From the NCBI RefSeq assembly GCF_009192765.1, contig NZ_VOHQ01000001.1:682001-746000 (forward strand): a stretch of DNA of 64,000 nucleotides, read 5' to 3'. Within the stretch, counting starts at the first letter, position 1. Every line of letters begins with the position of its first letter. The notes below the pieces were generated by a model. It was not told the origin of the DNA. It worked only from the letters and a program-made list of their open reading frames with translations, and searched no databases. The position numbers were made by a program, and so were the translations under genes. This document shows, in pieces, positions 3,135 to 63,636 of this stretch. This DNA comes from Agriterribacter humi (GTDB lineage: Bacteria > Bacteroidota > Bacteroidia > Chitinophagales > Chitinophagaceae).

Positions 3135-5789
3135 TCACCTGCCGGTATTCATAATACCGGTATAGTAATCTCTCGCCTGCTGATAATGCATCCTCACCTG
3201 GTCAAGTGTTTCAGGAAAAAACTTTTTCCATTTTCCTTCATTAGCAATATTGGCTAATATATGATCTATCCATCTCACAAAATACATCGCATCTTCTTTG
3301 TCCGCCATGATATTTTCGCCACCAATATATACATATACCGGAGAGGTATGCGTATGATATTCGTTTCCGCTTACCCGCCTGGCGGCAATCCAGGAGCTTT
3401 TATCAACCACATAGCTTGTTTTCAGCGCAAAAGGTTTGCCGGGAGTAGCAGCACCACCTGCGGCATTTGCAATAACTTTTCCGTTACATAATATTTCAAT
3501 TTCCCCTTTTGAACCGTTCTCCGTATTCCATGTAACTTCAATATTTATTTTTTGCTTTCCAGGAAACTGAATTGACGCACCGGGTGCTTGATCACCATTC
3601 ACTTTTAAATCGATAAATTCTTTATCACCCAACCTTGATATGACCGTCTTCCCTTCGCGTATCGCTTCAATCCAGTTGTTATAAGTGAGATTGGTATTAA
3701 CATGGGCGTAAGTTCGTACGGTTCCCAGCGGCTCAAAATTATTACATGGAAAATCCGTGCCCGCAGCAAGCCCCAGCTTGATACCGCAGTTGAGCATCCT
3801 GTAGTATACATCGAGAGATTGTTTCCCAAAATATGATCCGCCATTCGGAGAATACGATCCAAAAACATCTGTTGAAACAAAATCAATATTCTTTAATGCC
3901 GCTTCCACCGGCAGGTCAACAGGAATGCAGCAGTTCAGCTCCGCAGGTATATTTTCATTGAGATATTCCAGGTGAGCGAAGCCTCTTACCGCGTTTTGTT
4001 TTTTGGCCCATTCTAATATTGTATAGGGAGATTCCGCCCACATTTGTTCCGCCTGCGTTAACCCAAGCAATACCAGGTGTCCGCCCAATGCCTGTTTAGC
4101 GAAATTCGTATACGTTGCATCCCAGTGCCATTCGGCATCCCAGCGAACAATGGCTTCGGGAGTGGATTGTGCCGCGTCTTTACCTGTAACCAGTTTCAGA
4201 TCTGTTTCGGCGTTGTATACTTCACCATTCCCCATATCTGCAAGCACGGAAATAACCGACAGTCCATTCTTTTTCATAGCAGCGGTTAAAGAATCTACTG
4301 AATATACGGGAGTGCCTCCACCGCAATTCCTGTGCATATGTATGTCGCCCGCATACCATCCTTTCTCTTTTAATTTGTTGTTGAGTGTTCCTGCACCCGA
4401 AGTAGTAGCAGGTTCAGCAACCAGTGTGTATATACAATTTGCCGGAACTACTATTTTTAATTTTCCATTCTTACCAGGCAAATATGTTTTTTGAGTTTTG
4501 AGATTATTAAGACTATCTGTAAAAATGAGCCGCACCGATTCAATACCCGGAAAATTATCCAATGATATTTCAATCTTCGCTGCCTTATTGTATGGATTAA
4601 GCCCAACTATTACAGGTGCATTCCGCGAGGGATTGAAGAAAGCAAGCGCAGGCGCTTTACTATCGCTGCTTTGCAATTCTATCAGCCATGAACCGGGGGT
4701 TACATATTTTGATATTTGGGAGATGGCAAAAAAATGTTTTCTGGGAGTATAGGTTTTATTTTCTTTATTGTATCCCAATATTCCCCAATAGCTAAACAGG
4801 CTGGGCGCGTGATGATCATAATAACTGTCATACCCTTCCCATACCATTGCCGCGGCCGCGCCATTCTTCAGCAGATCCAGCAAATATCCCATGCATTGCG
4901 CCGCGAACTGATAATTATAAGCAGTCATAATGCCGTCATCCAATCCATCTCTCCATGCATTCCATTCGGTAACCCAGAATTTTTTATCAGGAAATTCAGA
5001 GTGCTTTATCAGGGAATCTACAGGAGCATAATAACCGCTATAACTATGAACGGCAAAGCGGCTGATGCGGGACATGATGAGCGAATCCTTCATCATTTCC
5101 GGGATATAGCGGTCAACGCTATTGTTCATTCCGGCCGCATCCGGGCCAACAAAGCGGATATCATTCATCCCGCTTTGCTTTACCCGCATTATAATTTTTC
5201 TCATGATGGCCACATACCTGAATTCATTGAGCCTTGGACCTTCTTTTTGAATATCAGATTCGTTAAAAGGGGCTACCAGTCCAAATTTTAAATGTTGGTT
5301 ATTCCTGGCATACTGTAAAAAAGAAACAAACATTTCTACAAACTCATCTTCCTGCCTGGGATCTACCGTCTCCCCTCCCATCCATGCGGGGAGATATCCC
5401 ATCAGGTTGATCATGATATTATGAGAGATGCCTTTTTTATTGAGGTAGGCGATTGTTTTCCATACGCTGGTAAACTTTGTTGTTGCATAAAGGCTGTCGT
5501 AGTATTTCCAGTTATATACAAACGGGTCGTCATTATCATTAACATCTTCCCATTCTTTTGGTGTTTCTACAATTACACGAAAGATTTTTGCCTGCATGGA
5601 GTCAACCAACAAATCAATAGCAGGCTTCAGCTCATCCTCTTTCCAACTCCGCGAATTGATATTAACGCCTATGCCATCTATAGTCTGCAACCGGTTAAGC
5701 CCATTTACAGCCATTTTAATGTTTTGCTGCGAATAAGTATATGTACTAAAAACAAAACAGGTAATCAGCAAAGTAAACCTTACAGGCAT
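3135..5789 (-). CDS. GH30-like glycosidase fused to CehA/McbA-type PHP domain
   Basis: An 884-residue secreted two-domain protein with a signal peptide ending near residue 20 (TYTYSQQ). Residues about 25-370 look like a clan GH-A (beta/alpha)8 glycosidase close to GH30: the start motif LQTIDGIGVNINSRSW, a probable acid/base Glu177 in APFNESD and a probable nucleophile Glu275 in FWVTEWNAW. A short beta domain follows. From about residue 476 comes a PHP-type metallohydrolase of the CehA/McbA kind, with the metal motif GDIHMH (Asp482, His484, His486) and a later AAGTDFPCN. Each half alone is a known fold. The fusion suggests a glycosidase coupled to a metal-dependent hydrolase, possibly for ester- or phosphate-decorated glycosides. 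The substrate is not inferable. Confidence 0.75.
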   Translation of the reverse strand: MPVRFTLLITCFVFSTYTYSQQNIKMAVNGLNRLQTIDGIGVNINSRSWKEDELKPAIDLLVDSMQAKIFRVIVETPKEWEDVNDNDDPFVYNWKYYDSLYATTKFTSVWKTIAYLNKKGISHNIMINLMGYLPAWMGGETVDPRQEDEFVEMFVSFLQYARNNQHLKFGLVAPFNESDIQKEGPRLNEFRYVAIMRKIIMRVKQSGMNDIRFVGPDAAGMNNSVDRYIPEMMKDSLIMSRISRFAVHSYSGYYAPVDSLIKHSEFPDKKFWVTEWNAWRDGLDDGIMTAYNYQFAAQCMGYLLDLLKNGAAAAMVWEGYDSYYDHHAPSLFSYWGILGYNKENKTYTPRKHFFAISQISKYVTPGSWLIELQSSDSKAPALAFFNPSRNAPVIVGLNPYNKAAKIEISLDNFPGIESVRLIFTDSLNNLKTQKTYLPGKNGKLKIVVPANCIYTLVAEPATTSGAGTLNNKLKEKGWYAGDIHMHRNCGGGTPVYSVDSLTAAMKKNGLSVISVLADMGNGEVYNAETDLKLVTGKDAAQSTPEAIVRWDAEWHWDATYTNFAKQALGGHLVLLGLTQAEQMWAESPYTILEWAKKQNAVRGFAHLEYLNENIPAELNCCIPVDLPVEAALKNIDFVSTDVFGSYSPNGGSYFGKQSLDVYYRMLNCGIKLGLAAGTDFPCNNFEPLGTVRTYAHVNTNLTYNNWIEAIREGKTVISRLGDKEFIDLKVNGDQAPGASIQFPGKQKINIEVTWNTENGSKGEIEILCNGKVIANAAGGAATPGKPFALKTSYVVDKSSWIAARRVSGNEYHTHTSPVYVYIGGENIMADKEDAMYFVRWIDHILANIANEGKWKKFFPETLDQVRMHYQQARDYYTGIMNTGR

Positions 5790-15048: not shown

Positions 15049-16341
15049 ATGTATAAACGTTACTTTGTTGCGTGCTGTGTTTTCTGCCTGCTTTTTTGTA
15101 TAAAATTGTATGCGCAGCGGGAGCCGGATAAGATATTTCAAAAAAATATCAAAACCGTTCAGCTTAACCTGTACGGGGATCAAACGGCTTACCCCATAAT
15201 AAAACTGAACAGCGGCGATATGCTGCAACTGGATTTTGATGACATGGACGGCGATATCAAAAACTATTACTACAATATTGAATTGCGTAATGCGGATTGG
15301 TCGGCCGTGCAAATGGGTTATTTTGATTATGCCAAAGGATATACCAATCAGCGCATATCTACCTACCGCCGTTCGGCGCAGGTGCTTACCAGGTATACCC
15401 ATTACCAGTTGGTATTTCCGGGCAGGGATATTATGCCCACCAAAGCCGGAAATTATGTACTAAAGGTTTTTTTAGATGGCGACACTTCAAAACTGGCATT
15501 CACCAGGCGATTTTTAGTTACCGATGCGGGCATAGCAGTATCGGCGCAGGTTCAGCAGCCCTTTGGTCAGCAGTTTTTCAGAACACACCAGAAAGTACAA
15601 TTTACAGTAAATGCGGGCAGGTTAAATGTAAGCTACCCGCAACAGCAAATAAAAGTGGTGATCCTGCAAAACAACCGTTGGGATAACCGCATACAAAATA
15701 TAAAGCCCAGTATTGTACGTAACAATATGTATGAATACAATACCGAGAAAGATGGTATTATGCCCGCCATGCGGGAATGGCGATGGCTCGACCTTACCAG
15801 TTTTCGTTTGCTTAGTGACAGGGTAAGGCGCCAGGAGAATACCAATACTGCTTATGATCTGTATGTGGTACCCGATCCATCGCGTAATACCCAGCGGTAT
15901 ATTTATTATAAAGATTATAATGGCATATATGCGGCATTGACCAATGAAAACGTAAATCCCTACTGGAATGGCGATTATGCTACGGTGCATTTTACATATA
16001 AAACGCCTACCAATACACCGTATACCAAAGATCTGTATCTTATTGGGCAAATTACCAATTATGGAACGGACGATAGTGCTAAAATGCGCTGGAACCAGCA
16101 ACAAAGCGCCTACGAGACCACGCTGCAACTTAAACAGGGTTACTATGATTATGCTTACGCCCTGGCAGATGGTAAAAGCAATCCTCCCAAATTTATTACA
16201 GATGAAACGGAAGGCAATATATGGGAAACAGAGAACCAATACAGCATATTGGTATATTACCGTGAACTGGGCGGAAGGTATGACCAGTTGATGAATGTAA
16301 CGGTAATCAATTCGATGATGAACCGGCCCGGGCAGTTTTAG
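15049..16341 (+). CDS. Type IX secretion system plug protein (DUF5103)
   Basis: A 430-residue secreted protein with signal peptide CVFCLLFCIKLYAQ. It matches the DUF5103/T9SS plug family: an N-terminal beta domain (IKTVQLNLYGDQTAYPIIKLNSGD), YYYNIELRNADWS, YQLVFPG, and a C-terminal Ig/CBM-like domain (TKDLYLIGQITNYGTDDSAKMRWN). Plug proteins close the periplasmic side of the SprA translocon pore when it is empty, so the organism should have a working T9SS. It is divergent from the LolC/E-like permease by 43 bases. No clear promoter box was seen. Confidence 0.82.
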   Translation: MYKRYFVACCVFCLLFCIKLYAQREPDKIFQKNIKTVQLNLYGDQTAYPIIKLNSGDMLQLDFDDMDGDIKNYYYNIELRNADWSAVQMGYFDYAKGYTNQRISTYRRSAQVLTRYTHYQLVFPGRDIMPTKAGNYVLKVFLDGDTSKLAFTRRFLVTDAGIAVSAQVQQPFGQQFFRTHQKVQFTVNAGRLNVSYPQQQIKVVILQNNRWDNRIQNIKPSIVRNNMYEYNTEKDGIMPAMREWRWLDLTSFRLLSDRVRRQENTNTAYDLYVVPDPSRNTQRYIYYKDYNGIYAALTNENVNPYWNGDYATVHFTYKTPTNTPYTKDLYLIGQITNYGTDDSAKMRWNQQQSAYETTLQLKQGYYDYAYALADGKSNPPKFITDETEGNIWETENQYSILVYYRELGGRYDQLMNVTVINSMMNRPGQF

Positions 16342-16344
16342 GAA

Positions 16345-16380
16345 TCAGAATTTGAAATTTGAAATTTAATATTTGAGATT
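16345..16380. repeat. AAATTTGA-word spacer
   Basis: A short tract of degenerate units (GAATTTGAAATTTGAAATTT, then AATATTTGAGATT). It belongs to the family of word-like intergenic tracts described for the iol operon. Confidence 0.5.
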
Positions 16381-16489: not shown

Positions 16490-16520
16490 TTTGTCTTTTG
16501 GTGCTTCCTTCGTATCTTTG
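16490..16520 (+). promoter_or_regulatory. Promoter of SRP RNA
   Basis: A -33 element TTTG at 16490-16493 and a -7 element TATCTTTG at 16513-16520 are separated by 19 bases, an exact match to the Bacteroidota housekeeping promoter (TTTG-N19-TAnnTTTG). Transcription would start at about 16525, exactly at the first paired base of the RNA. Confidence 0.8.
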
Positions 16521-16524
16521 CAGC

Positions 16525-16618
16525 GGCAAGTCTTATACGACCAGCTCCTGCTGAACTCCCCCAGGACCGGAAGGTAGCAAGGGTAGGTGGTTGAGCGGTG
16601 CGATGTAAGTAACTTGCC
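16525..16618 (+). ncRNA. ffs: Signal recognition particle RNA (small bacterial type)
   Basis: A 94-nt RNA. The conserved apical domain is unmistakable: GCTGAACTCCCCCAGGACCG, then GAAGGTAGCAAGGGTAGG, with the GGAA-type tetraloop and the asymmetric internal loops bound by Ffh. The terminal stem is GGCAAG (16525-16530) paired with CTTGCC (16613-16618). A T-run follows directly, so the terminal stem also serves as terminator. It would act with Ffh and FtsY in co-translational membrane targeting. Confidence 0.93.
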
Positions 16619-16625
16619 TTTTTTT
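16613..16625 (+). terminator. Terminator of SRP RNA
   Basis: The 3' arm of the closing stem (CTTGCC) is followed by seven T residues at 16619-16625. Confidence 0.7.
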
Positions 16626-16687: not shown

Positions 16688-17347
16688 ATGAAATTTTTTA
16701 TTGATACAGCCAACCTGGCGCAAATTAAAGAGGCCCACGAATTAGGTATATTAGATGGCGTTACAACCAACCCTTCCTTAATGGCTAAAGAAGGCATTAA
16801 AGGTGATGAAGCTATAAGAAATCACTATAAAACCATTTGTGAACTGGTAGACGGAGGAGATGTGAGCGCGGAAGTAATTTCCACAGACTTTGAAGGTATT
16901 GTTGCCGAAGGAAAGATATTAGCGGCTATTCACCCTAGTATAGTAGTAAAAGTACCTATGATTAAAGATGGTATAAAAGCATTAAAATGGTTTTCCGACA
17001 ATAGCATTAAAACCAATTGCACACTGGTATTTTCTGCCGGGCAGGCTATTCTGGCCGCCAAAGCAGGCGCCAATTATGTGTCTCCGTTTATTGGCAGAAT
17101 AGACGACAGCAGTTGGGATGGCATGGAACTGATTGGGCAAATTGCACAGATATACGCCCTGCAGGGATTTAAAACAGAGATATTAGCGGCTTCCATTCGC
17201 AGCTCATTGCATATTGTAAGAGCAGCCGAATTAGGCGCCAACGTATGTACCTGCCCATTGGAACCCATTTTAGGTTTACTGAAACATCCTTTAACCGATA
17301 TTGGCCTAGCCAAATTTTTAGAAGATGCCAAAAAAATGCAGCATTGA
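16688..17347 (+). CDS. fsa: TalC/FSA-type small transaldolase
   Basis: A 219-residue decameric-type aldolase of the FSA/TalC/MipB family. The sequence [20 protein letters not shown] and the Schiff-base lysine 88 in VVKVPM are typical. At the two positions that separate activities, this protein has Glu62 (SAEV) and Phe134 (VSPFIGR), the pattern of transaldolases. Fructose-6-phosphate aldolases have Gln and Tyr there. It most likely moves dihydroxyacetone units between sedoheptulose-7-phosphate and glyceraldehyde-3-phosphate in the pentose phosphate pathway. It is monocistronic, 70 bases after the SRP RNA, with a terminator at 17396. Confidence 0.9.
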
Positions 17348-17395
17348 TGGGATAAAGGGGAATAGTGAGTAGTGAGCATGTTCAAAAAAAATTAC

Positions 17396-38389: not shown

Positions 38390-39043
38390 ATTACAATGCT
38401 TTCTCAAACAATTTATGCAATATTTTTAAGTCATAGAATGTTTTCCATGTATTGCTACCGGCAGCTTGTCCCCAACCCTTATTCCTCTCCGTTTTTGAAA
38501 CTTCAAGTCCTTTGGAGTCGCTCAAAACTTTTCACCTTTTGTTATAGACCTTGTATCCTTTCAGGATAGGAATAAAAGGACATTCCGAAAGCGGTCTGAT
38601 CTTCCTGCATTGGGTGTTCGCCACTTTATGTATAAGGTTTTGTATTGACCCTGTAAGGGTCTAAACGTTTATAACTACACGATAAAAAGCATAGTTTACA
38701 AGCAGTTGAAAAAGAACCAACAACATGATGTACCGTTGGCAGCCTGCGGCCGTGGGGAACGAACCATCTGTATTGCCTCTCCGCAATTTATGGTTTGCTC
38801 GCAGCGACAGATTCTTCTCCCACTTTAAGCGGGAAATCCCGGCCCGCCTTCTTTATTGCATTGAAAGACGAAGCGCCTGTTATGATTTATATTTTATGCA
38901 ATACCTTTAAGCTATAAAATATTACCTGTTACTATAGACCGGCGAAGTGCCCTGAGCACCGAACCACCTCCTAACCTCGAAATACATTCTGAACTCTGCT
39001 TATCATTTCTGAAAGATCCAAGGCCAACCTCAATTATTGCATT
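38390..39043. repeat. Non-coding gap with two imperfect direct repeats
   Basis: About 650 bases with no supported gene. Text at about 38409-38462 (TTTATGCAATATTTTTAAG, then TCATAGAATGTTTTCC, ending CCGG) recurs in degenerate form at about 38894-38942 (TTTATGCAATACCTTTAAG, then CTATAAAATATTACC, ending CCGG). A small palindrome GACCCTGTAAGGGTC lies near 38648. The region may be the relic of a mobile element whose ends survive. Confidence 0.4.
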
Positions 39044-42910: not shown

Positions 42911-43001
42911 CTAAGAGCTACCAGCCATGAGCTGAGGTATTTTGCTAATGGCTGACTTCTTTACTGACAATTGACAACTCACATCTCACTAAAAAAAATT
43001 C
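42911..43001. repeat. Word-like degenerate spacer
   Basis: The spacer holds AGAGCTACCAGCCATGAGCTGA, then TGACAATTGACAACTCAC-type words. It resembles the spacers at 49050, 51759 and 63327. Confidence 0.5.
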
Positions 43002-47013: not shown

Positions 47014-47889
47014 ATGCCACATCAAAATTTGCTTGTCAGGCCCGATCCGGGAAACCGGAGGTATCATCATTTCACTGCACAGGATGCAGGCTGGAACTAC
47101 CTTAACTTTGAAACAAGGCTCTTAGATAACAATGAGACATTCTCAGAAGACACAGGCGACTATGAATATTGCATTGTTTTACTGGGCGGTAATTTTAAAG
47201 TAAGTTCCAATAAAGGCGAATGGGAAACCCGTAATGGCAGAAAAAACGTATTCAGTGGCATTGCCCATACCTTATACCTCTCCCGCAACACCAATTTTAC
47301 GCTTACCGCGCAAACCGCTAATACGGATATAGCTATATGCCGGGTAGCTACCAATGAAGATCATCCTCCTTATTTAAAGCGGCCCGAAGAGGCAACGATT
47401 GAGTTCAGGGGAGGCGATAATGCCAACCGTCAAATCAATAGTTTGCTTCAACCGGGGTTCAACTGTCATAAAATTGTATGCGTGGAGGTTTATACACCAT
47501 CAGGCAACTGGAGTTCTTACCCTGCGCATAAACACGATGAGCGCAAGGTAGATTCCAATGGCAACCTGTTGGAAGCGGAACTGGAAGAGATTTATTTTTA
47601 TAAAATAGATAAGCCAAACGGCTTTGCCATTCAGCAGGTATATACAGATGACCGCTCATTAGATGAGGTAATAAAGGTGCACAATAACGAAGCGGTGCTG
47701 GTGCCAAAGGGTTATCATCCGGTTGTTGCAGGGCATGGATATAATGTATATTATCTAAACTTTCTTGCGGGCAGCGATCAGTCTTTAGCAAATACCCCCG
47801 ACCCCCAGCAGGAATGGATTTTTGGCACATGGAAGGGACAGGACCCACGGCTTCCGATGGTAACAGCGGAAATGAACAATACCATTTGA
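47014..47889 (+). CDS. iolB: 5-deoxy-glucuronate isomerase
   Basis: A 291-residue bicupin isomerase that converts 5-deoxy-glucuronate to 2-deoxy-5-keto-gluconate in inositol breakdown. Family blocks are GWNYLNFETRLL, CIVLLGGNFKV, NWSSYPAHKHDE (metal-binding histidines), EEIYFYKIDKPNGFAIQQVY, VLVPKGYHPVVAGHGYNVYYLNFLAG and a final EWIFGTWKGQDPRLP. It is first in the operon, directly after the operator region, and iolC starts 10 bases later. Confidence 0.93.
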   Translation: MPHQNLLVRPDPGNRRYHHFTAQDAGWNYLNFETRLLDNNETFSEDTGDYEYCIVLLGGNFKVSSNKGEWETRNGRKNVFSGIAHTLYLSRNTNFTLTAQTANTDIAICRVATNEDHPPYLKRPEEATIEFRGGDNANRQINSLLQPGFNCHKIVCVEVYTPSGNWSSYPAHKHDERKVDSNGNLLEAELEEIYFYKIDKPNGFAIQQVYTDDRSLDEVIKVHNNEAVLVPKGYHPVVAGHGYNVYYLNFLAGSDQSLANTPDPQQEWIFGTWKGQDPRLPMVTAEMNNTI

Positions 47890-47899
47890 GATTATAATT

Positions 47900-48916
47900 A
47901 TGAATGCGACAAAAAAATACGATCTGCTTACTATTGGAAGGTCTTCTATTGATCTGTATTCCGCTAATGTGGGCAGGCCCTTCACTGATATTTCGGCATT
48001 TAATGCATTTGTGGGTGGATGCCCAACCAATATAGCGGTAGGGGCAACAAGACTTGGATTAAAAACCGCCCTGCTTACCGGCATTGGTAACGACCAGGTA
48101 GGAGCTTTCATTAAACACTTTTTACAAAAAGAAAATGTAATCACGGATTTTATACCCACGATAGAGGGTACCCGAAGTTCGGCTGTTATACTTGGCATTG
48201 AACCCCCGGATAAATTTCCACTGGTATATTACCGCGACAACTGCGCAGATATACATTTGGATATTGAGCATATGGACAAAATTCCTTTCAGCGATTTTAA
48301 AGCGGCCATTTTTTCAGGAACGGCTTTAAGCAAGGATCCCAGCCGTACCGCTATGTTTTATGCCCTGGAACTGGCAAAGAAAAATGCTGTTATAAAACTA
48401 TTGGACCTTGATTTCAGGGCCGACCAATGGCACGACCCACGTGCTTTTGGTATAGTTATCCGCACGATCTTACCACAGTTTAATATAGTAATAGGTACTG
48501 AAGAAGAAATACTGGCTGCCTATCTTACCGATATCAGCCAGGTATCCATCAAACACCAGCAAATATCTGCTCCTGAAATCAAAGGCAATATTAACAAAGC
48601 CATACAAAATATCATAGATACCGGCGTTGATACCCTTATCGTGAAAAGAGGAAAAGACGGCGCTTCCGTATTTGAAAAAGGAAAAGCAGAAGTGAAGGTT
48701 CCCGGCTTTCCGGTAGAAGTATTGAATGTGCTTGGCGCGGGAGATGCCTTTGCAGGAGGATTTTCATATGGTTACCTGAGTGGATGGGATCTGTATAAAA
48801 GTGTGCGCATAGGCAATGCCTGCGGCGCCATTATTGTTACGCGGGAAGGTTGCGCTAACTTTATGCCAACGCTGGAAGAGGTTATGCAATTTACAGATGA
48901 ACGGGGTGGGCTGTGA
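47900..48916 (+). CDS. iolC: 5-dehydro-2-deoxygluconokinase
   Basis: A 338-residue PfkB-type sugar kinase that phosphorylates 2-deoxy-5-keto-gluconate. It has YDLLTIGRSSIDLYSANVG at the N-terminus, AFVGGCPTNIAVGATRLGLKTALLTGIG, and the catalytic GAGDAFAGGFSYG near residue 277. The C-terminal DUF2090 domain found fused to IolC in some proteobacteria is absent, consistent with a separate aldolase gene in this operon (53561). A 183-base word-like spacer follows. Confidence 0.93.
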   Translation: MNATKKYDLLTIGRSSIDLYSANVGRPFTDISAFNAFVGGCPTNIAVGATRLGLKTALLTGIGNDQVGAFIKHFLQKENVITDFIPTIEGTRSSAVILGIEPPDKFPLVYYRDNCADIHLDIEHMDKIPFSDFKAAIFSGTALSKDPSRTAMFYALELAKKNAVIKLLDLDFRADQWHDPRAFGIVIRTILPQFNIVIGTEEEILAAYLTDISQVSIKHQQISAPEIKGNINKAIQNIIDTGVDTLIVKRGKDGASVFEKGKAEVKVPGFPVEVLNVLGAGDAFAGGFSYGYLSGWDLYKSVRIGNACGAIIVTREGCANFMPTLEEVMQFTDERGGL

Positions 48917-48961
48917 AAATGCTGTGGTCGGTACGCGATGAAGAAGCGTCAGACCGCGGGG

Positions 48962-49080
48962 GATTGTTGCAGGGTGCAGGTTACAAGTTGCAGGTTTCAG
49001 GGGGAAAAAGCATTCCGAAGTAAGTGAAAGGGTAACAGGGTTCAATGCCGCTGATAGCTGATTGCCGATAGCTGATAGCT
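48962..49080. repeat. Word-like degenerate spacer between iolC and iolA
   Basis: It contains GGGTGCAGGTTACAAGTTGC and, near 49050-49080, repeated units of GCTGATAGCTGATTGCCGAT type. It has no coding frame. Confidence 0.55.
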
Positions 49081-49099
49081 AAAAAAACATAAAATCAAT

Positions 49100-50566
49100 A
49101 TGGAAAAATTAAGAAATTATATCAACGGACAATGGGTAAGCAGCAGTGCAACCACGTATGTGAATGTAGTAAATCCTGCCAGCCAGGAGGTGCTTGCCCA
49201 GGTTCCTTCGGGTACTCCCGCCGATGTGGATGCGGCAGTTCAGTCATCTGAAAATGCTTTTGCCACATGGAAACGTTTGCCGGCAGGAAAGCGCATCCAG
49301 TACCTTTTTCATTTAAAAAGATTACTGGAAGAAAATATTGATGAGCTTTCCAAAACCATTACGCTGGAATCGGGAAAAACATATGCCGAATCTAAAGCAG
49401 AATGGGTTCGCGCTATTGAAAATGTAGAAAATGCATGCGGCATACCCGCATTGATGCAGGGCGATTTTTCGGAAGATATTTCTTTGGGCATTGATGAATA
49501 TATGATCCGCCAGCCTCTTGGTGTTTGTGCCTGCATTTCGCCCTTCAATTTCCCCGGCATGATACCTTTCTGGTTTCTGCCTTATGCCATCGCCTGCGGA
49601 AATACGTTCATCATCAAACCTTCTGAAAAAGTGCCGCTTACCATGACGAAAGTAATGGAACTGGTAGCGAAATTAGATTTACCGGCCGGAGTAATCAATA
49701 TGATACATGGCGGCAAATCCGTTGTAGACGGCATGCTCGAACATCCTGGTATTAAGGCGGTGAGTTTTGTGGGTTCGTCTGCTATAGCCCGTTATGTATA
49801 TGCCAAAGGCGCCGCTAACGGCAAGCGCGTACAGGCGCAGGGTGGTGCAAAAAATCCGGTGATCATTTTATCCGATGCCGATTTAGACATGACTACGCAA
49901 ATTGTGGTAGACAGCGTATATGGCTGTGCAGGGCAACGTTGCCTGGCTGCATCAACGATTATAACGGTTGGAGAACATGCCAATTTTACCGAAAGCCTGG
50001 TAGAACTGAGCCGCAAACGCAGTACCGGATTTGGACTGGACGAAAGCGTACAAATGGGGCCGGTAATTACGGCCGATAGCAAAACGCGTGTGAACAGTCT
50101 TATAGAAAAAGGCATACAGGAAGGAGGCAGATTATTATTAGATGGCCGAGATGCTAAAATTTCCGGCTACGAAAAAGGTAATTTTATACAGCCCACTATT
50201 ATAGAAGATATCCCTCTTCATGGTGAAATAGCGGGCACCGAAATATTTGGGCCGGTAATGAGCTTAGTGCATATCAATACTATTGAAGAAGCCATTGCTT
50301 ATGTAAACGGAAATAAATATGGCAATATGGCCTGCATATTTACCAGCAGCGGGTTGCACGCCCGCAGATTCAGAAATGAAGCAGACGCAGGTAATATAGG
50401 TATTAATATAGGCGTTGCGGCGCCGGTAGCGCAGTTTCCCTTCAGTGGATGGAAAGAAAGTTTTTTTGGCGACCTGCACGGGCAGGGTAAACATGCCATT
50501 GAATTTTTTACACAAACCAAAGTGGTGATCGAAAGATGGCTGAAGGAATGGACCAGGAAGTTTTAG
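49100..50566 (+). CDS. iolA: CoA-acylating methylmalonate-semialdehyde dehydrogenase
   Basis: A 488-residue ALDH-superfamily enzyme that oxidises malonate semialdehyde (the last inositol product) or methylmalonate semialdehyde with CoA and NAD to acetyl-CoA or propionyl-CoA. The family start [13 protein letters not shown], the NAD-binding text [12 protein letters not shown] and the catalytic cysteine 281 in [11 protein letters not shown] are present. The glutamate of ordinary ALDHs is not used in this family. It is inside the iol operon, flanked by spacers of 183 and 172 bases. Confidence 0.92.
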
Positions 50567-50655
50567 TGGGAAGTCGTAAGTGGTAAGGCATCAATGTCTC
50601 CGTTGCGTACTTTGCTTCCTTTGTGCCCTTTCCCCCCGTCCAAGTGGTGTCATCC

Positions 50656-50736
50656 CCGCCTGAATGGATCAGTCGGGCAGGCGGGTGTGAAATAGCAAAA
50701 AGGCATCAAATTTCAAATGTTAAATCTCAAATTATA
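50656..50736. repeat. Palindrome and AAATTTGA-word spacer before iolG
   Basis: CCCGCCTG (near 50656) and CAGGCGGG (near 50677) form an imperfect palindrome of the GCCTG class. It is followed at 50706-50736 by the tract CAAATTTCAAATGTTAAATC, the complement of the word family seen at 16345. Confidence 0.5.
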
Positions 50737-50738
50737 AC

Positions 50739-51758
50739 ATGTCAAAAAAATTAAAAACCGGCGTAATCGGGCTCGGACGTATCGGGCAGATACATCTTTC
50801 CAACCTGCTGTACAATACACAAAATGCGGAAGTGATCATTGCATCTGATGTTTCCCCCGGTGCGCATGAATATGCCAAACGCCTGGGCGTACCACAGGTA
50901 ACTACCCGCGCAGAAGAAGTGATTGATCATCCGGATGTGGAGGCGGTTATTATTTGTGCTCCTACACCGCAGCACGTGCCTTATACTATCGCTGCCGCAC
51001 AGGCGAAAAAACATGTATTTTGCGAGAAGCCATTGGATGTTACGCTTCCGGCTATTCTTTCTGCCCAACAAGCGGTAAAGGAAAACGGCGTAAAACTCAT
51101 GCTGGGCTTTAACCGCAGGTTCGATCCGAATTTTGCCAGGATTGGGTCACTCGTAAAGAATGACGCCATTGGTGAACCACATATTTTGCGGATCACCAGC
51201 CGCGACCCGGCACCTCCGCCATTGGAATATGTAAAAATTTCGGGCGGTCTTTTTCTTGATATGACCATCCACGATTTTGATATGGCCCGTTTTATTACGG
51301 GCAGTGAAGTAAAAGAAGTATTTGTAAAGGGAGATGCACTGATAGATCCCCGTATTAAACAGTATGATGATATAGATACAGCCGTAATCGTACTTACATT
51401 TGAGAACGGCGCTATTGGTGTAATTGATAACAGCCGTAAAACGGTGTACGGATACGATCAAAGGCTCGAGATATTTGGTTCAAAAGGAATGGCAAAAGCA
51501 GAAAATAATACGCCGGATAATGTAATGCAATACGGAAATGAAGGCGGGCAAACTGCATTACCACTCTACTTTTTCCTGGAACGTTATGAAAAAGCTTACC
51601 GCACCTGCATGCAGTCGTTTATAGATTGTGTGCTAAACGATACAGCTTCGCCTGTAGATGCGCACGATGGGCTTATGGCAACCGCCATAGGACTTGCCGC
51701 AGGTTTGTCTTTAAAAGAAAACAGGGCTGTGAGGATGGATGAAATAATAAAAATATAA
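50739..51758 (+). CDS. iolG: Inositol 2-dehydrogenase
   Basis: A 339-residue cytosolic Gfo/Idh/MocA oxidoreductase. It starts KTGVIGLGRIGQIHLSNL (Rossmann GxGxxG), has the catalytic EKPLDVTLPA with lysine, and the inositol-dehydrogenase blocks LGFNRRFDPNFARIG, GGLFLDMTIHDFDMARF and FENGAIGVIDNSRKTVYGYDQR. It oxidises myo-inositol to scyllo-inosose with NAD, the first step of the pathway. It lacks a signal peptide, unlike the two exported family members in this window. Confidence 0.92.
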   Translation: MSKKLKTGVIGLGRIGQIHLSNLLYNTQNAEVIIASDVSPGAHEYAKRLGVPQVTTRAEEVIDHPDVEAVIICAPTPQHVPYTIAAAQAKKHVFCEKPLDVTLPAILSAQQAVKENGVKLMLGFNRRFDPNFARIGSLVKNDAIGEPHILRITSRDPAPPPLEYVKISGGLFLDMTIHDFDMARFITGSEVKEVFVKGDALIDPRIKQYDDIDTAVIVLTFENGAIGVIDNSRKTVYGYDQRLEIFGSKGMAKAENNTPDNVMQYGNEGGQTALPLYFFLERYEKAYRTCMQSFIDCVLNDTASPVDAHDGLMATAIGLAAGLSLKENRAVRMDEIIKI

Positions 51759-51872
51759 TGATAATGTGTGAAGTGAAAGATGAAAGAACTCGCCATTTAC
51801 CATTCACAACTCACAACTCACTATTCACAATTCACCACTGACTACTCACCACTCACTTAATAATCCCTAACG
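51759..51872. repeat. CTCACNA-word spacer before the symporter
   Basis: A tract of degenerate short units: CATTCACAACTCACAACTCA, then CTATTCACAATTCACCACTG, then ACTACTCACCACTCACTTAA. It has no coding frame. The transcript strand is rich in C, A and T and should be single-stranded. Confidence 0.65.
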
Positions 51873-53483
51873 ATGAACCAAACTGGCTTGCACACATTAG
51901 ATTACCTGGTTTTTTTTCTGTACCTCGCCATCATTGGTGGTTACGGATATTGGATATATAAAAAGAAAACCAACAAATCCAATACCGCTTCGGGGTTTTT
52001 CCTTGCTGAAGGTTCGCTTACCTACTGGGCTATTGGCGCATCACTGATCGCTTCCAATATTTCGGCCGAACATTTCATAGGTATGTCGGGCTCCGGTTTT
52101 GCTATTGGTTTGGCCATTTCATCGTACGAGTGGATGGCAGCGGCTGCATTGATCGTAGTTGCCGTTTTCTTTTTGCCCGTATATCTTAAGAACAAGATAT
52201 ATACTATGCCCCAGTTTTTGCGGCAGCGCTATAACCCTGTTGTAGCCACTACAATGGCGGTATTCTGGTTATTATTGTACATATTCGTTAACCTCACTTC
52301 CATCATTTACCTCGGCGCACTGGCCTTAGAAGTAACCGCCGGCATCAATTTTAATGTAGCAGTTGTGGCTTTAGCGCTTTTCGCCATTTTAATTACCATT
52401 GGCGGCATGAAGGTGATCGGGTATACGGATGTAGTGCAGGTAATAGTGCTTATTATTGGCGGACTGATCACTACTTATTTAGCGCTTGACCTGGTGGCAA
52501 AAGAATTTGGCAAACCGGATATACTGAGTGCTTTCGGAACATTAAAAACACAGGCCGATACGCATTTCCACATGATACTGAAACAGGATAATCCGTACTA
52601 CAAGGATTTACCGGGTTTAACTGTTATCATTGGCGCTATGTGGATCAACAACCTGAACTACTGGGGCTGCAATCAATATATTATACAACGCACACTGGGC
52701 GCCGACTTAGAAACAGCGAGAAAAGGAATTTTGTTCGCTGCTTTTTTAAAACTGCTCGTTCCATTGATCGTTGTTATACCAGGGATAGCCGCTTTTGTAC
52801 TGCATCAAAATGGCATGTTCCAGCAGGAAATGGTTGATGCCGCAGGAACGGTAAAACCAGACCATGCTTATCCCGTATTGCTGAACTTATTGCCCATGGG
52901 TTTAAAAGGAGTAGCCTTTGCTGCACTAACCGCCGCCATCGTAGCATCACTTGCAGGCAAGGCCAATAGCATCTCCACCATTTTTACTTTAGACATTTAT
53001 AAACTATACATCAAACCTGGCGCTTCCGAAAAACACCTGATCCGTGTGGGCCGTCTCGCCGTTTGGGTGTCCATGCTCATCGCGGTTTTGATTGCCCCAC
53101 AGCTAAAAGTGCTGGAACAGGCATACCAGTTCATACAGGAATATTCAAGCTTTATTACCCCGGGTGTATTTGCAATATTCTTTTTCGGTATGTTCTGGAA
53201 AAGGGCTACCTCCGCTGCGGCATTAACTACCGCCTTGCTAACCATACCGCTATCCACCGCATTCAAATTCTGGTTACCGGAAATACCCTTCTTAAACAGG
53301 ATGGGTATCGCTTTCCTGATCTTATCGGCGGTAATGGTCATTATTAGCCTCACTTCAAAAACCAAAAACAACCAGGGACAGATTGAGATAGAAATGCCTT
53401 CGTTTAACCTGAGCCGTTCGTTTATTGTTGGCGCTACTATCATATGCGGTATCCTGGCAGCTTTGTATACGGCGTTCTGGTAA
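51873..53483 (+). CDS. Sodium/solute symporter (SSS), probable inositol importer
   Basis: A 536-residue inner-membrane protein with about fourteen helices and the SSS/SGLT blocks: YWAIGASLIASNISAEHFIGMSGSG near residue 50 (Na+ site region), MPQFLRQRYNP, GGMKVIGYTDVVQVIVLIIGG and AFAALTAAIVASLAGKANSISTIFTLDIYK. SGLT-like members import sugars or inositol with sodium. Its position inside the iol operon makes myo-inositol the likely substrate. Confidence 0.88.
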   Translation: MNQTGLHTLDYLVFFLYLAIIGGYGYWIYKKKTNKSNTASGFFLAEGSLTYWAIGASLIASNISAEHFIGMSGSGFAIGLAISSYEWMAAAALIVVAVFFLPVYLKNKIYTMPQFLRQRYNPVVATTMAVFWLLLYIFVNLTSIIYLGALALEVTAGINFNVAVVALALFAILITIGGMKVIGYTDVVQVIVLIIGGLITTYLALDLVAKEFGKPDILSAFGTLKTQADTHFHMILKQDNPYYKDLPGLTVIIGAMWINNLNYWGCNQYIIQRTLGADLETARKGILFAAFLKLLVPLIVVIPGIAAFVLHQNGMFQQEMVDAAGTVKPDHAYPVLLNLLPMGLKGVAFAALTAAIVASLAGKANSISTIFTLDIYKLYIKPGASEKHLIRVGRLAVWVSMLIAVLIAPQLKVLEQAYQFIQEYSSFITPGVFAIFFFGMFWKRATSAAALTTALLTIPLSTAFKFWLPEIPFLNRMGIAFLILSAVMVIISLTSKTKNNQGQIEIEMPSFNLSRSFIVGATIICGILAALYTAFW

Positions 53484-53560
53484 ACAAATTTGAAAGTTTA
53501 TAGTTTAGGGTTTATAGTTAGGTAACCACAAACTATAAACCATAAATCACAAATAAAACA
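53484..53560. repeat. TATAGTTT-word spacer with hairpin
   Basis: Words of the TTTATAGTTTAGGGTTTATAG type occur here. GGTTTATAGTT (53509-53519) and AACTATAAACC (53531-53541) form a perfect 11-bp inverted repeat with an 11-nt loop. Confidence 0.55.
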
Positions 53561-54511
53561 ATGTTACTAACTACAAAAGAAATATTCAGCAAATGTTACG
53601 GGCAATATGCTGTGCCGGCGGTGAATGTCTTTTTTATGGAAGAGATACATGGATTGTTTGCCGCGGCTCAGGAAGCCAAAGCGCCTTTTATTGTGCAAAC
53701 CACACCTTTTGCCCGCGACTATGCGAATGCACACATGCTACTGGCAATGATACAGGCGGCAGCGAAAATATATCCGCAAACCGTATATGCTGTCCATCTT
53801 GATCATGGATATGAAGCGCATATATGGGATGCTATTGAAAGCGGAGGTTATACTTCTGTAATGATTGACGCTTCGCACGATGATCTGGAAAAGAATATTG
53901 GCCGCACTAAAGCCGTTGTAGAAAAAGCCCACGCCAAAAATATAAGTGTGGAAGCGGAACTGGGTGTGCTGGCGGGCGTGGAAGATGATCTGACGGTGGA
54001 GGCAGCCCATTCTTTTTATACCAATCCAAAAGATGTAGAAACTTTTGTAAACCAAACCGGCTGCGATAGTTTGGCCATCGCTGTAGGTACCAGTCATGGC
54101 GCTTATAAATTTTCCGGCGGACAGGGCTTACAATTGCAAATACTCAAAGAAATTCAACAACGCCTTTCTGGTTTTCCTTTGGTATTACATGGCGGATCCA
54201 ATGTAAATGAGGAAGTAGTGCGAAGGATAAACGCTGCCGGTGGCAAATTAAAAACAGATGCTAAAGGTGTGCAGGAAGATGAGCTGAAAAAAGCGATAGC
54301 GCTCGGTATCTGTAAAGTAAATATTGCTACCGATACCCGATTGTTATGGACAATGGTAAACCGCGAATTTTTCCGCGACCGCCCGGATGAATTTGCACCC
54401 ACAACACCTGGCAAAATATTTATGGAAACGTATAAAGCGTTTATGCTGAAGAAGTTTGAATTGATGGAAGCGGTGGGAAAGAGTTTAGAGTTTGTGATTT
54501 GTGATTTATAG
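53561..54511 (+). CDS. iolJ: Class II aldolase, probable 5-dehydro-2-deoxyphosphogluconate aldolase
   Basis: A 316-residue zinc-dependent class II aldolase of the fructose-bisphosphate aldolase family. Zinc and catalytic residues are visible in VHLDHGYEA, VEAELG, GTSHGAYKF and LHGGSN, and the phosphate loop lies in KVNIATDTRL. In the operon it should split 2-deoxy-5-keto-gluconate-6-phosphate to dihydroxyacetone phosphate and malonate semialdehyde (the IolJ step). The last codons (LEFVICDL) are written in the same TTTGTGATTT words as the neighbouring spacers, so its C-terminus may have been altered by a spacer repeat. Confidence 0.82.
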   Translation: MLLTTKEIFSKCYGQYAVPAVNVFFMEEIHGLFAAAQEAKAPFIVQTTPFARDYANAHMLLAMIQAAAKIYPQTVYAVHLDHGYEAHIWDAIESGGYTSVMIDASHDDLEKNIGRTKAVVEKAHAKNISVEAELGVLAGVEDDLTVEAAHSFYTNPKDVETFVNQTGCDSLAIAVGTSHGAYKFSGGQGLQLQILKEIQQRLSGFPLVLHGGSNVNEEVVRRINAAGGKLKTDAKGVQEDELKKAIALGICKVNIATDTRLLWTMVNREFFRDRPDEFAPTTPGKIFMETYKAFMLKKFELMEAVGKSLEFVICDL

Positions 54512-54540
54512 TTTAAAATCATTAAGAGATAAAAATTTCG
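54487..54540. repeat. Word-like tract overlapping the 3' end of the aldolase gene
   Basis: GTTTAGAGTTTGTGATTTGT then GATTTATAGTTT repeats the vocabulary of 53490-53555 (there on the other strand as AACTATAAACC, AAATCACAAA). The first half encodes the last eight residues of the aldolase, and the stop codon is within the tract. Confidence 0.5.
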
Positions 54541-54543
54541 ATC

Positions 54544-56406
54544 ATGAAAAAAAGATTAACCGTTGCGCAGGCAACCATCGCATTTTTAAAAAACCAGTAC
54601 ACAGAGCGCGATGGCGTTGAACAGCCTTTTTTTGCAGGGTGTTTCGGCATATTCGGGCATGGTAACGTGGCCGGGTTGGGGCAGGCCTTACAGGAAAACC
54701 CCGACTTCAGGTATTACCAGTGCCGCAACGAGCAATCCATGGTACATACTGCTGTTGCCTATGCGAAAGTAAAGAACAGGCTAAGCGCTTTTGCCTGTAC
54801 TACGTCCATTGGCCCGGGCGCTACCAATATGTTAACCGGCGCTGCACTGGCAACCATCAACCGCATCCCTGTATTATTATTACCGGGAGATATTTTTGCC
54901 ACCCGCGAACCTGCTCCTGTATTGCAGCAATTAGAAAGCGCTGTTACGCAGGATATATCGGTGAACGATTGTTTTAAACCGGTTTCCAAATACTGGGACA
55001 GGATCAACCGCCCCGAACAATTGATCTATGCATTGCCTGAAGTGATGCGGGTGCTTACTTCTCCATCCGAAACAGGAGCCGTTACCCTTTCCATGCCACA
55101 GGATGTACAAACACATGCCTATGATTTTCCCGCTTCGCTTTTTGAAAAAAGAGTGTGGCATATCCCCCGCTCCAGGCCGGACAGCAGCCTGTTGAAAAAA
55201 GCAGCGGAGTGGATCAGCAAGTCCAAAAATCCTGTTATCGTTGCAGGCGGAGGAACCATATACAGCGGGGCAAGTGATGTGCTGCACCAGTTTGCCACAC
55301 AAACTGGTATACCGGTGGGTGAAACATTTGCAGGCAAAGGTTCGGTAATGTATGATGCGCCGTATTGTGTTGGCGGCCTGGGCGCTACTGGCACTAAATA
55401 CGCCATTGAAATTGCCAATGAAGCAGATGTAGTAATAGGCATTGGCACGCGTTACAGTGATTTCACCACGGCTTCCAAATCCATTTTTAAAAGCCCTGAT
55501 GTTAAATTCATCAACATCAATGTAAGTGAATTTGACGCCCATAAACACAATGCCCTCCCGCTAACCGGCGATGCAAAAGTTACACTGGAAGAATTGCTTT
55601 CTTCACTTGGGAATTACAAGGCAGATGATACCTACCGGAAAAGGATATCCGAAATGAGTAAAGCATGGGATGATGAAGTAACGCAGATTTACGCGGAAGG
55701 TAACGGAACCGTTCCTCCTATTGACCAGGCGGTAGTGATTGGTACGCTCAACAGCTTTATGAACAGGGAAGATATTATGATCAATGCTTCGGGCAGTGCA
55801 CCCGGCGACCTGCATAAATTATGGAGAGCAACAAGCCCTAAAAGTTTCCACCTCGAATATGGATACTCCACCATGGGTTATGAAATTGCGGCCGGACTTG
55901 GGGCAAAGATGGCGGCGCCTGAACGCGAAGTATATGTTATTTGCGGTGATGGCGGCTACCTGATGAACAACCACGAGATCATTACATCCATACAGGAAGG
56001 CGTACGCTTTACCATTTTACTGCTGAACAATAACGGGTATGCCAGTATCGGCGGATTGTCGGAAAGTATAGGCAGCGAAAGATTCGGAACCAAATACAGG
56101 TACAGGGAGGATCAGTCGGGGCAGCTAAGCGGTGAAATATTACCCGTGGACCTTGCTAAAAATGCGGAAAGTCTGGGCGCTGTGGTAATAAAGGCTACGG
56201 ATGCAGCTTCACTGAAAGCCGCGTTAGCATCGGCAACCCAACAGCAACGCACAACCGTAATTTATATTGAAACGCATTTGCACCGTACCGTAAAAGGATA
56301 CAATGCCTGGTGGGAAGTACCGGTTGCTGAAGTATCCACATCGCCTTCGGTACAAAAGGCCTATGAAACCTATAAAGAAAACAAAAAACAACAACGCATA
56401 TTCTGA
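54544..56406 (+). CDS. iolD: 3D-(3,5/4)-trihydroxycyclohexane-1,2-dione hydrolase
   Basis: A 620-residue thiamine-diphosphate enzyme that opens the inositol-derived ring to 5-deoxy-glucuronate. It has RLTVAQATIAFLKNQYTERDG at the N-terminus, QCRNEQSMVHTAVAYAK with the ThDP-activating glutamate, ACTTSIGPGATNMLTGAALA, and the ThDP/Mg motif CGDGGYLMNNHEI...NNNGYASIGG near residue 465. It is 32 bases after the aldolase and 4 bases before iolE. Confidence 0.94.
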   Translation: MKKRLTVAQATIAFLKNQYTERDGVEQPFFAGCFGIFGHGNVAGLGQALQENPDFRYYQCRNEQSMVHTAVAYAKVKNRLSAFACTTSIGPGATNMLTGAALATINRIPVLLLPGDIFATREPAPVLQQLESAVTQDISVNDCFKPVSKYWDRINRPEQLIYALPEVMRVLTSPSETGAVTLSMPQDVQTHAYDFPASLFEKRVWHIPRSRPDSSLLKKAAEWISKSKNPVIVAGGGTIYSGASDVLHQFATQTGIPVGETFAGKGSVMYDAPYCVGGLGATGTKYAIEIANEADVVIGIGTRYSDFTTASKSIFKSPDVKFININVSEFDAHKHNALPLTGDAKVTLEELLSSLGNYKADDTYRKRISEMSKAWDDEVTQIYAEGNGTVPPIDQAVVIGTLNSFMNREDIMINASGSAPGDLHKLWRATSPKSFHLEYGYSTMGYEIAAGLGAKMAAPEREVYVICGDGGYLMNNHEIITSIQEGVRFTILLLNNNGYASIGGLSESIGSERFGTKYRYREDQSGQLSGEILPVDLAKNAESLGAVVIKATDAASLKAALASATQQQRTTVIYIETHLHRTVKGYNAWWEVPVAEVSTSPSVQKAYETYKENKKQQRIF

Positions 56407-63326: not shown

Positions 63327-63636
63327 CTCATCTCATATGTCTCCTGAGCAGTCAGCTTTCAGCCGTCAGCTATCGGCTAAAGCATACTAACGATGAGCTA
63401 AATCCTTCTTCCGCGTTTTACCTCTTCTCACTTACCTAAACCACAAATTGTAAACTACAATCTAACATTGAAACGGATTTTCCTGCAACCTGTAACATGC
63501 AACCTATCCACTTACCTCTCACTTTTCACATCTCACAATTCACTACTCACCACTCACTATAAACCACAGATCGTAAAGTATAAACCCAACATTGAAACGG
63601 GTTTTCCCTGCAACCTGTAACATGCAACCTATCCTC
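63327..63636. repeat. Word-like spacer with two 72-74 bp direct repeats
   Basis: Copy A at 63438-63509 and copy B at 63561-63634 share AAACCACAnATnGTAAA-type text and then CATTGAAACGG..TTTTCC and GCAACCTGTAACATGCAACC. CTCACNA words (TCTCACAATTCACTACTCAC) fill the interval, and CAGCTTTCAGCCGTCAGCTA lies at the left. There is no coding frame. Copy B ends 2 bases before the stop codon of the next gene. Confidence 0.7.

Follow-up and report, generated by a model that had tools for sequence, protein, structure and literature searches.

The iol-like gene cluster of Agriterribacter humi (Chitinophagaceae) raises the question of what fills the spacers between its genes. Within the 64,000-nt stretch analysed as a whole (GCF_009192765.1, NZ_VOHQ01000001.1:682,001-746,000; hereafter the window, with positions counted from its first base), an earlier note had drawn attention to four gene-free spacers made of recurring short units (CTCACNA, AAATTTSA, TATAGTTT, and AGCTGAT), and had read in this shared vocabulary a repeat-generating process and a possible RNA-level role. 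All four spacers do have the described units between named open reading frames (ORFs), and the vocabulary turns out to be one phenomenon, degenerate tandem repeats of 7 nt, since every unit reduces to that period. The spacer repeats are real and are confirmed as intergenic heptanucleotide tandem repeats, with a 7-nt unit well above chance and a preference for non-coding DNA.

A period scan of the window gave 249 segments of 42 nt that reach 24 matches at period 7, compared to at most 23 for any period between 2 and 30 that is not a multiple of 7, and Tandem Repeats Finder (TRF) returned the 7-nt units GTTGCAG, GCTGATA, AGTGGTA, TCAAATT, TCACAAC, AGTTTAT, AACCATA, and TTTGTGA. In a sample of 1.264 Mb of the 5.69-Mb genome (window included), where genes were called approximately by a greedy longest-ORF rule, there are 125 intergenic period-7 arrays, compared to 1.8 in dinucleotide-model shuffles and 2 to 15 for each of the other periods from 4 to 13. 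These 125 arrays are contained in 142 kb of intergenic DNA and only 26 others in 1122 kb of called ORFs, a strong preference for non-coding sequence, and 91 of the 615 intergenic regions of at least 60 bp bear an array. When set against a composition model, and coding against intergenic DNA, the words of the earlier note survived, best as dimers. Two consecutive copies of AACCTGN gave 30 intergenic and 10 coding matches (shuffles 0.0, reversed word 0) and of YTCACHA 28 and 4 (shuffles 0.0, reversed word 4 and 3), and the per-base ratio of intergenic to coding matches was 16 to 114 for the six dimers tried. Enrichment of single words is modest (CTCACNA, 97 vs 34.8 shuffled; AAATTTSA, 88 vs 59.1; TATAGTTT, 28 vs 11.1; AGCTGAT, 25 vs 14.0), and the density of AGCTGAT is barely higher in intergenic than in coding DNA (ratio 1.2). 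The 7-nt period itself had escaped the earlier note, as had a fifth word, GTTGCAG (48968-49001), and an array (54480-54515) overlapping the end of the aldolase gene.

Most arrays (127/151) fit six word families, A (AACCTGN), B (YTCACHW), C (CAAATYT), D (YAAACYA), E (TAGCTGA), and F (RAAATCC), and 24/151 fit none. We call C-type the strand on which the family words are given here, which for words A to D contains few G, and G-type its complement. The direction of word E was set by its place before start codons and not by base counts, so that GCTGATA before a start is G-type by base count. The degeneracy of these words is locked to certain phases of the unit. In an assay where one phase was freed and the other fixed phases had to match in three consecutive units (own genome, the related genome G153, and eight related loci), word A departed from consensus in 1/51, 0/48, and 1/49 units at phases 2, 4, and 5, and was variable in 11, 22, 26, and 65% of units at phases 0, 1, 3, and 6. 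Words B (6 to 32 units per phase, thus few), C (24 to 72), and D (8 to 73) follow the same trend, and word E gave no usable signal in this assay. In genome G113, from a distant family (f22), the word CCCAGTN varies in 1/253 cases at its six fixed phases vs 15/42 at the free one. The free position of words A to D is seldom G on the C-type strand.

Neighbouring units of an array resemble each other, with an agreement above column shuffles of +0.125, +0.037, -0.039, and -0.068 at lags 1 to 4 (95 columns). Array pairs sharing a string of three units number 5, 0, and 0 for words A, B, and D, with means of 5.3, 0.7, and 0.3 when units are shuffled across arrays. The arrays draw on common unit alleles without a long shared order, which suggests that they are assembled locally out of a shared stock of units and not by recent copying of whole blocks.

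The arrays are also unevenly spread over the types of spacer. Family-fitting arrays were found in 74/415 codirectional, 29/101 convergent, and 5/118 divergent spacers, and without the family requirement 72 codirectional, 30 convergent, and 8 divergent (of 118) spacers have an array. In the family-fitting spacer counts, as in the per-word counts at stops given below, the type was taken from the word family, which is partly circular for word E (20/127 arrays). For the border counts at stops and starts, the orientation of arm pairs, their complementarity and wobble, and the counts in convergent halves and tractless spacers, the type came from base counts, and arrays with equal G and C were dropped from border counts and arm-pair orientation. 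Among arrays whose start lies between 10 nt before and 9 nt past a stop-codon end, G outnumbers C on the sense strand in 55/57, compared to 25:29 for those 10 to 60 nt away. Randomising the array orientation in silico (six runs) and calling the genes again gave 31.5:19.2 at stops, and inverting all arrays reversed the bias to 9:36, so that ORF calling contributes to the stop rule and does not create it; an artefact of the ORF caller was rejected on these grounds. Close to stops (starts from 40 nt before to 12 nt after), word A is G-type in 20/20 arrays, and the G-type to C-type counts are 5:0 for word C and 7:1 for word D; C-type exceptions among the 70 stop-near arrays number three (word B, two; word D, one). 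In-word stop codons were also rejected as the cause of the orientation, word A containing none. The preference near start codons is weaker, with 12 C-type vs 6 G-type arrays (control 5.7:9.7), and array-free leaders in divergent spacers are G-poor too (121 vs 65).

Pairs of opposite arrays with one arm within 20 nt of a gene run G then C in 22/22 cases in the own genome and in 55/57 over five sets. For pairs with both arms more than 20 nt from genes there is no such rule (GC 6, CG 5; 10:7 over the five sets), and lone arrays far from borders follow it in 15 cases and break it in 17. The orientation rule seems therefore to belong to the gene border rather than to the array. Convergent spacers of the Dyadobacter group break the rule (left half G1:C6, right half C2:G5), and the arrays listed for this group suggest partly one orthologous place.

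Phase-variation repeats are associated with surface or antigen genes and switch expression; the genes flanked by arrays in the window are metabolic by their Pfam matches. These arrays and the genes around them are as follows.

47014-47889, + strand: KduI/IolB-family gene, upstream in the iol-like cluster (Pfam KduI 4e-78).
47900-48916, + strand: PfkB-family kinase gene, upstream in the iol-like cluster (Pfam PfkB 1.6e-49).
48926-48955, no strand assigned: palindrome GGTCGGTACGCGATGAAGAAGCGTCAGACC in the first spacer, like a repetitive extragenic palindromic (REP) sequence; similar palindromes recur in other spacers.
48968-49001, + strand: heptad array, word A G-type (GTTGCAG/GTTACAA/GTTTCAG); the G153 version has other unit order and length.
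49050-49080, + strand: heptad array, word E (GCTGATA), ending 19 nt before the ATG at 49100; L001 and G153 have an array too.
49100-50566, + strand: aldehyde dehydrogenase, IolA/MmsA-like (Pfam Aldedh 2e-137).
50565-50587, + strand: heptad array, word B G-type (AGTGGGA/AGTCGTA/AGTGGTA), across the stop codon of the aldehyde dehydrogenase gene.
50654-50685, no strand assigned: REP-like palindrome CCCCGCCTG...CAGGCGGG in the middle of the second spacer.
50706-50732, + strand: heptad array, word C (CAAATTT), 6 nt upstream of the ATG at 50739; one substitution compared to G153.
50739-51758, + strand: GFO/IDH/MocA oxidoreductase, IolG-like (Pfam GFO_IDH_MocA 2.3e-24, GFO_IDH_MocA_C3 6.6e-29).
51793-51856, + strand: heptad array, word B C-type (CTCACNA/TTCACNA), about 9 units, 16 nt before the ATG at 51873.
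51873-53483, + strand: sodium:solute symporter (Pfam SSF 1.2e-62).
53486-53519, + strand: heptad array, word D G-type (GTTTATA), starting 2 nt past the stop codon.
53524-53554, + strand: heptad array, word D C-type (TAAACYA), inverted partner of 53486-53519, 6 nt before the ATG at 53561.
53561-54511, + strand: class II aldolase, its final codons made of heptads (Pfam F_bP_aldolase 5e-80).
54480-54515, + strand: heptad array, word D G-type, over the 3' end and stop codon of the aldolase gene.
54544-56406, + strand: thiamine-pyrophosphate enzyme, IolD-like, the query with which relatives were found (Pfam TPP_enzyme_M 2e-37).
16349-16380, + strand: heptad array, word C G-type (AATTTGA), past the ORF that ends at 16341.
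17363-17376, + strand: word B G-type, two units (TAGTGAG), a short distance past an ORF that ends at 17347 (G000:C1:699363-699376 in the genome search).
42965-42989, + strand: short array TGACAAT/TGACAAC/TCACATC, TTGACAA shifting to CTCACAT in register.
63347-63379, + strand: heptad array, word E on the other strand (TCAGCYN).
63508-63557, + strand: heptad array, word B C-type (CTCACNA).

The last five places bear on similar tracts that the earlier note had seen outside the cluster. The one at 16349-16380 is clear, those at 42965-42989 and 63347-63379 are moderate, with a better one close to the latter at 63508-63557, and near 17360 there are two units only. An Rfam scan of the window gave no match at the spacers, the sole match being a Bacteroidales small signal recognition particle (SRP) RNA (RF04183, 89.4 bits) at 16517-16623 (+), which follows shortly after the word C array at 16349-16380. 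Other periods exist as well: the spacer with the word B and word C arrays has a degenerate period-9 array (TCCTTTGCG) at 50599-50631, and period-8 arrays of the GACCGTAA type were seen elsewhere in the genome (G000:C1, ~119,000-121,000). Two further repeats were noticed, a 197-nt intergenic stretch of the window (~38,496-38,692) covered by four non-self matches to other fetched spacers, and a dispersed intergenic repeat, CGCCAGGGTC...GACCCCGGCGCG, at G000:C1 ~39,000-78,000 with some copies on contig C23.

How these spacers look in relatives was followed with IolD-like loci fetched from named genomes, the nearest being an uncultured Sphingobacteriales metagenome-assembled genome (MAG), L001 (95% IolD identity), followed by other Chitinophagaceae and Dyadobacter. 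Genome G153 matches the symporter gene at 89%. Seven relatives keep the gene order of the cluster (an eighth, L003, has only the last three genes in common), and their iol spacers carry arrays of another word, length, or middle, or none. The spacer between symporter and aldolase has word D in the window and in L005 and word C in L001, L002, L066, L004, and L006 (L004 and L006 being the same), and the version of L001 and G153 has word C at the place of 53486-53519; in L008 it is 16 nt long and has no array. The rows for the L001 aldolase gene, where a gene call was extended beyond the stop, were excluded from these comparisons of spacers and gene ends. The G-type array at 50565-50587 has counterparts at the same site in L001, L066, and L004. 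The MmsA-like proteins of the window and the seven relatives all end in EWTRKF, and C-poor sequence begins at the first base after their stop codon in 6/8, with a detected array in 4; it is absent in L002 and L008. Among 34 syntenic spacers compared with G153, arrays were present in both genomes in 10, in the own genome only in 1, in G153 only in 3, and in neither in 20, with lengths and words changed. Identity to G153 in aligned sequence was 84.6% in arrays, 85.6% in other intergenic DNA, and 83.9% in coding DNA, the alignments omitting the arrays that had diverged most. Where repeat-like DNA spans the stop codon, the aldolase has a different C-terminus in different species, EFVICDL in the window and EFENLKI in both L008 and L066, and the arrays may rewrite protein ends there. 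The IolD-like gene and the next one overlap by 104 nt (56303-56406) in the window and L001; in L004, L005, and L006 the gene following seems to begin past the stop, with array-like DNA there, the starts being extrapolated from partial matches.

All 12 genomes searched within the genus contain word A (1 to 110 matches each; 0 for the reversed control), as does one of 26 other relatives. Loci of the Dyadobacter group contain 65 intergenic arrays in 827 kb, mostly of the TTAGCTN type among the matches listed, and they also have intergenic arrays at period 8 (15) and period 10 (24). Intergenic period-7 matches numbered 42 in 389 kb of G153, 11 in 114 kb of G113, 1 in 100 kb each of G136 and G164, and 3 in 80 kb of G021 (mostly T-runs), with the stretches from G113, G136, G164, and G021 picked on contigs with word matches. 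In named loci outside the close and Dyadobacter groups there were 9 in 498 kb, and three other Chitinophagales loci had 0 in 50 kb. A 59-nt GCTGAGT array was seen outside Bacteroidota, at 4493-4551 of a locus titled Anaerolineae (L075).

The period, the six words, the phase-locked degeneracy, the likeness of neighbours, the change of words and lengths between species, the scarcity in divergent spacers, and the stop rule are all features of the data. The repeat-generating process envisaged by the earlier note is supported, with a single 7-nt step behind all words, adjacent units more alike, and relatives' spacers differing in length and wording. One tentative explanation, which we favour at slightly less than an even chance, is that the degenerate arrays arise by replication slippage or template switching in steps of 7 nt, primed by the core of the word, with selection acting at gene borders. 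The growing strand would slip or switch template by one unit during replication and re-anneal through a 2- to 4-nt core (C.TG in AACCTGN; T.AC in CTCACNA), so that units with a mutated core would not be primed again and would be lost. Linker positions would stay free because matching there is not needed for re-annealing, and the same words could spread, each existing unit being able to prime another. Selection would purge arrays from coding sequence and promoters, and close to genes it would mostly tolerate G > C on the sense strand after a stop and, more weakly, C > G before a start. The arrays would thus be mostly by-products that set the length of the spacer, with occasional secondary use possible. 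This mutational origin is preferred in view of the results on reverse transcriptase (RVT_1), Ku, arm pairing, and wobbles given below.

Several results weigh against core-primed slippage, a step that is itself inferred. Array lengths differ between species, and yet only 2/18 gap runs in the aligned arrays (a comparison between species) are multiples of 7, the alignments breaking at diverged arrays. Core sites changed in 18/171 cases vs 26/159 for linker sites in aligned orthologous arrays (p = 0.14), and the invariant positions of the Dyadobacter word do not form one contiguous block. Strings of two units of word B are shared 28 times vs 20.9 in shuffles, with 14/200 shuffles reaching 28, and arrays may therefore exchange units to some extent. 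Any cause proposed for the stop rule is putative: over the 37 nt that follow the stop in tractless convergent spacers, 58 ends are richer in G and 47 in C. Word A appears also in the distant family f22, with two rich genomes there among the 15/148 that have it across the phylum. Word B is patchy, found in 36/147 family genomes and 32/100 genera and present or absent between congeners, although its reversed control is not a clean null (18+1 in G187, 13+1 in G301, 15+9 in G228) and resembles another array word. Slippage alone leaves unexplained this patchy recurrence of one word, with the same free phases, across genera.

It is here that a trans-acting reader or writer, the strongest rival, comes in. 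A sequence-specific RNA- or DNA-binding protein, or a dedicated writer enzyme, would set the word, the invariant positions being contacted and the free ones not, and lineages would gain or lose words along with the factor. Degeneracy like that of a position weight matrix, at the same phases among arrays that share no long unit order, and the patchy recurrence of one word in many genera and between congeners would fit such a binder, as would the scarcity of arrays in divergent spacers. We consider it rather unlikely all the same, as core positions are hardly more conserved than linkers in orthologous arrays, several unrelated words coexist and replace each other at one spacer, and no candidate factor emerged (RVT_1 in 1 of the five word-A-richest genomes, G150; no Ku in G113 or G136). 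An unlikely variant is a heptad grammar tuned by lineage, where a patchily distributed trans-acting factor, reader or writer, would set a 7-nt word with fixed and free positions and each spacer would assemble its arrays independently, the adjacent stop codon giving them their direction. Word B, its free positions unchanged, would then mark the presence of the factor in those 36/147 family genomes. Selection for intercistronic RNA hairpins, with a G-type array after the stop pairing to a C-type array before the next start and the rest of the spacer looped out, would explain the G then C order of near-border arms. Complementarity of the arms exceeds that of permuted pairs at L002, L066, L003, and L005-L008 (11 pairs, 0.754 vs 0.611, 0/2000 permutations) and in the Dyadobacter group (19 pairs, 0.829 vs 0.667, 0/2000), both from loci that are orthologous and not independent; L001 (matching G153) and L004 (sharing arrays with L006) were left out of the complementarity, wobble, and arm-pair tests. 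The own genome (25 pairs, 0.620 vs 0.607, reached by 571/2000 permutations) and G153 (6 pairs, 0.536 vs 0.533, 1008/2000) show nothing of the kind, the two arms in a spacer frequently belong to different words (same family in 9/23, expected 5.1), and G-U wobbles (34 sense vs 19 antisense) gave p = 0.098. Hairpins are an unlikely explanation. The role as unstructured, protein-binding RNA proposed in the earlier note is conjectural: phase-specific degeneracy and the patchy words would fit a binder, and core conservation and wobbles lend it little.

Mobile DNA has to be considered too, since inverted arms surround a middle of 0 to ~170 bp, some middles contain REP-like palindromes, and Y1 transposases are present in 12/12 genus genomes. 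An element moved by a transposase, similar to a miniature inverted-repeat transposable element (MITE) or a REP and with heptads as terminal repeats, should have shared termini and an intrinsic polarity; away from borders the orientation is not intrinsic to the pair, no long order of units is common to the arrays, and 32/38 genomes have Y1 transposases regardless of words, so that we rejected this candidate as very improbable. Double-strand-break repair, with 3' ends extended by heptads and then fused by telomere-like healing or end joining and G-type sequence running inward from both sides, would account for the head-to-head G...C geometry near borders. The phase-locked variation of the arrays resembles templated synthesis, for which the telomeres of ciliates offer an analogy, and Ku is present in the own genome. 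This last rival is poorly supported and the least probable of all, because there is no orientation rule far from borders and because of the enzymes. Among the five genomes with the most word A, four (own genome, G153, G155, and G156) gave no RVT_1 match and the fifth, G150, gave one; Ku is found in 20/148 genomes, and of the 15 with word A, 6 have it and 9 do not, including the word-A-rich G113 and G136. Writing by a reverse transcriptase in a telomere-like fashion and Ku-dependent end joining were both rejected on these data, and neither enzyme seems to be required.

Seven-base repeats are known in other bacteria, and the closest match to the arrays described here is the set of GGGAATC and GGGGA(C/T)T heptamers of Xanthomonas and Nostoc, for which G-quadruplexes were proposed (Rehm et al., 2015; PMC4692102). 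That paper describes a 7-nt unit, mostly intergenic and heterogeneous (GGGANTN), with the G-rich strand sense within 50 bp of stops and antisense upstream of ORFs, few repeats between divergent ORFs and 70 and 75 convergent pairs in two xanthomonads, and length and sequence varying between close species. The same geometry is found in our arrays (G:C types 55:2 at stops and 6:12 at starts; 5/118 or 8/118 divergent spacers with an array). The difference is that one G-rich word is involved there and at least six here, C (AATTTGA) and D (GTTTATA) being without G runs. Quadruplexes need runs of at least three G per unit, and no GGG is found in the six consensuses, least of all in C and D, with about one fifth of word A units (ACCCTGN) and the CCCAGTN of f22 carrying one; as words C and D follow the stop rule (12:1), G-quadruplexes are not the common cause of the geometry. 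New with respect to that work are the degeneracy measured per phase and the replacement of words between species.

TAACTGA, one base from word E (TAGCTGA), forms direct repeats in Beggiatoaceae, Cyanobacteria, and five Bacteroidetes (MacGregor, 2015; PMC4679880). In that study they are intergenic heptamers, in a Beggiatoaceae genome mostly just upstream of starts and in one orientation, with a reverse set after a stop codon in Flexibacter, and indels between two Cyanothece strains are mostly in 7-nt increments; they are near-exact copies of one word, and one-base variants including TAGCTGA are given there as rare or absent as repeats (PMC4679880). The short tandemly repeated repetitive (STRR) heptanucleotides of cyanobacteria are described, by way of the same two papers, as a favoured repeat class for which polymerase slippage was proposed (PMC4692102, PMC4679880), and a survey of sequence patterns in prokaryotes is also available (PMC4060949). 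Unlike TAACTGA, the repeats described here are degenerate multi-word arrays across the genome. Mrazek in 2007 reportedly found heptanucleotides favoured among long simple sequence repeats, counts that we understand to be of near-perfect repeats. The present arrays are often more degenerate than STRR or long simple sequence repeats. We found no account of degenerate multi-word heptad arrays in Chitinophagaceae among the titles and opening abstracts of the papers returned by searches of the open-access literature.

Reports of heptanucleotide repeats have come piecemeal, from cyanobacteria, xanthomonads, giant sulfur bacteria, and some Bacteroidetes, each dealing with a single word or a handful and offering its own explanation. 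Here several words share one genome under common rules: a fixed step of 7 nt, degeneracy locked to phase, few arrays in promoter spacers, and a single orientation at stops. The G-quadruplex idea is weakened as a general cause. We know of no earlier description of these rules, and their cause is unproven. In cultivable relatives such as Dyadobacter it can now be tested directly what sets the unit at seven, what leaves certain letters free, and how stop codons come to orient the arrays.

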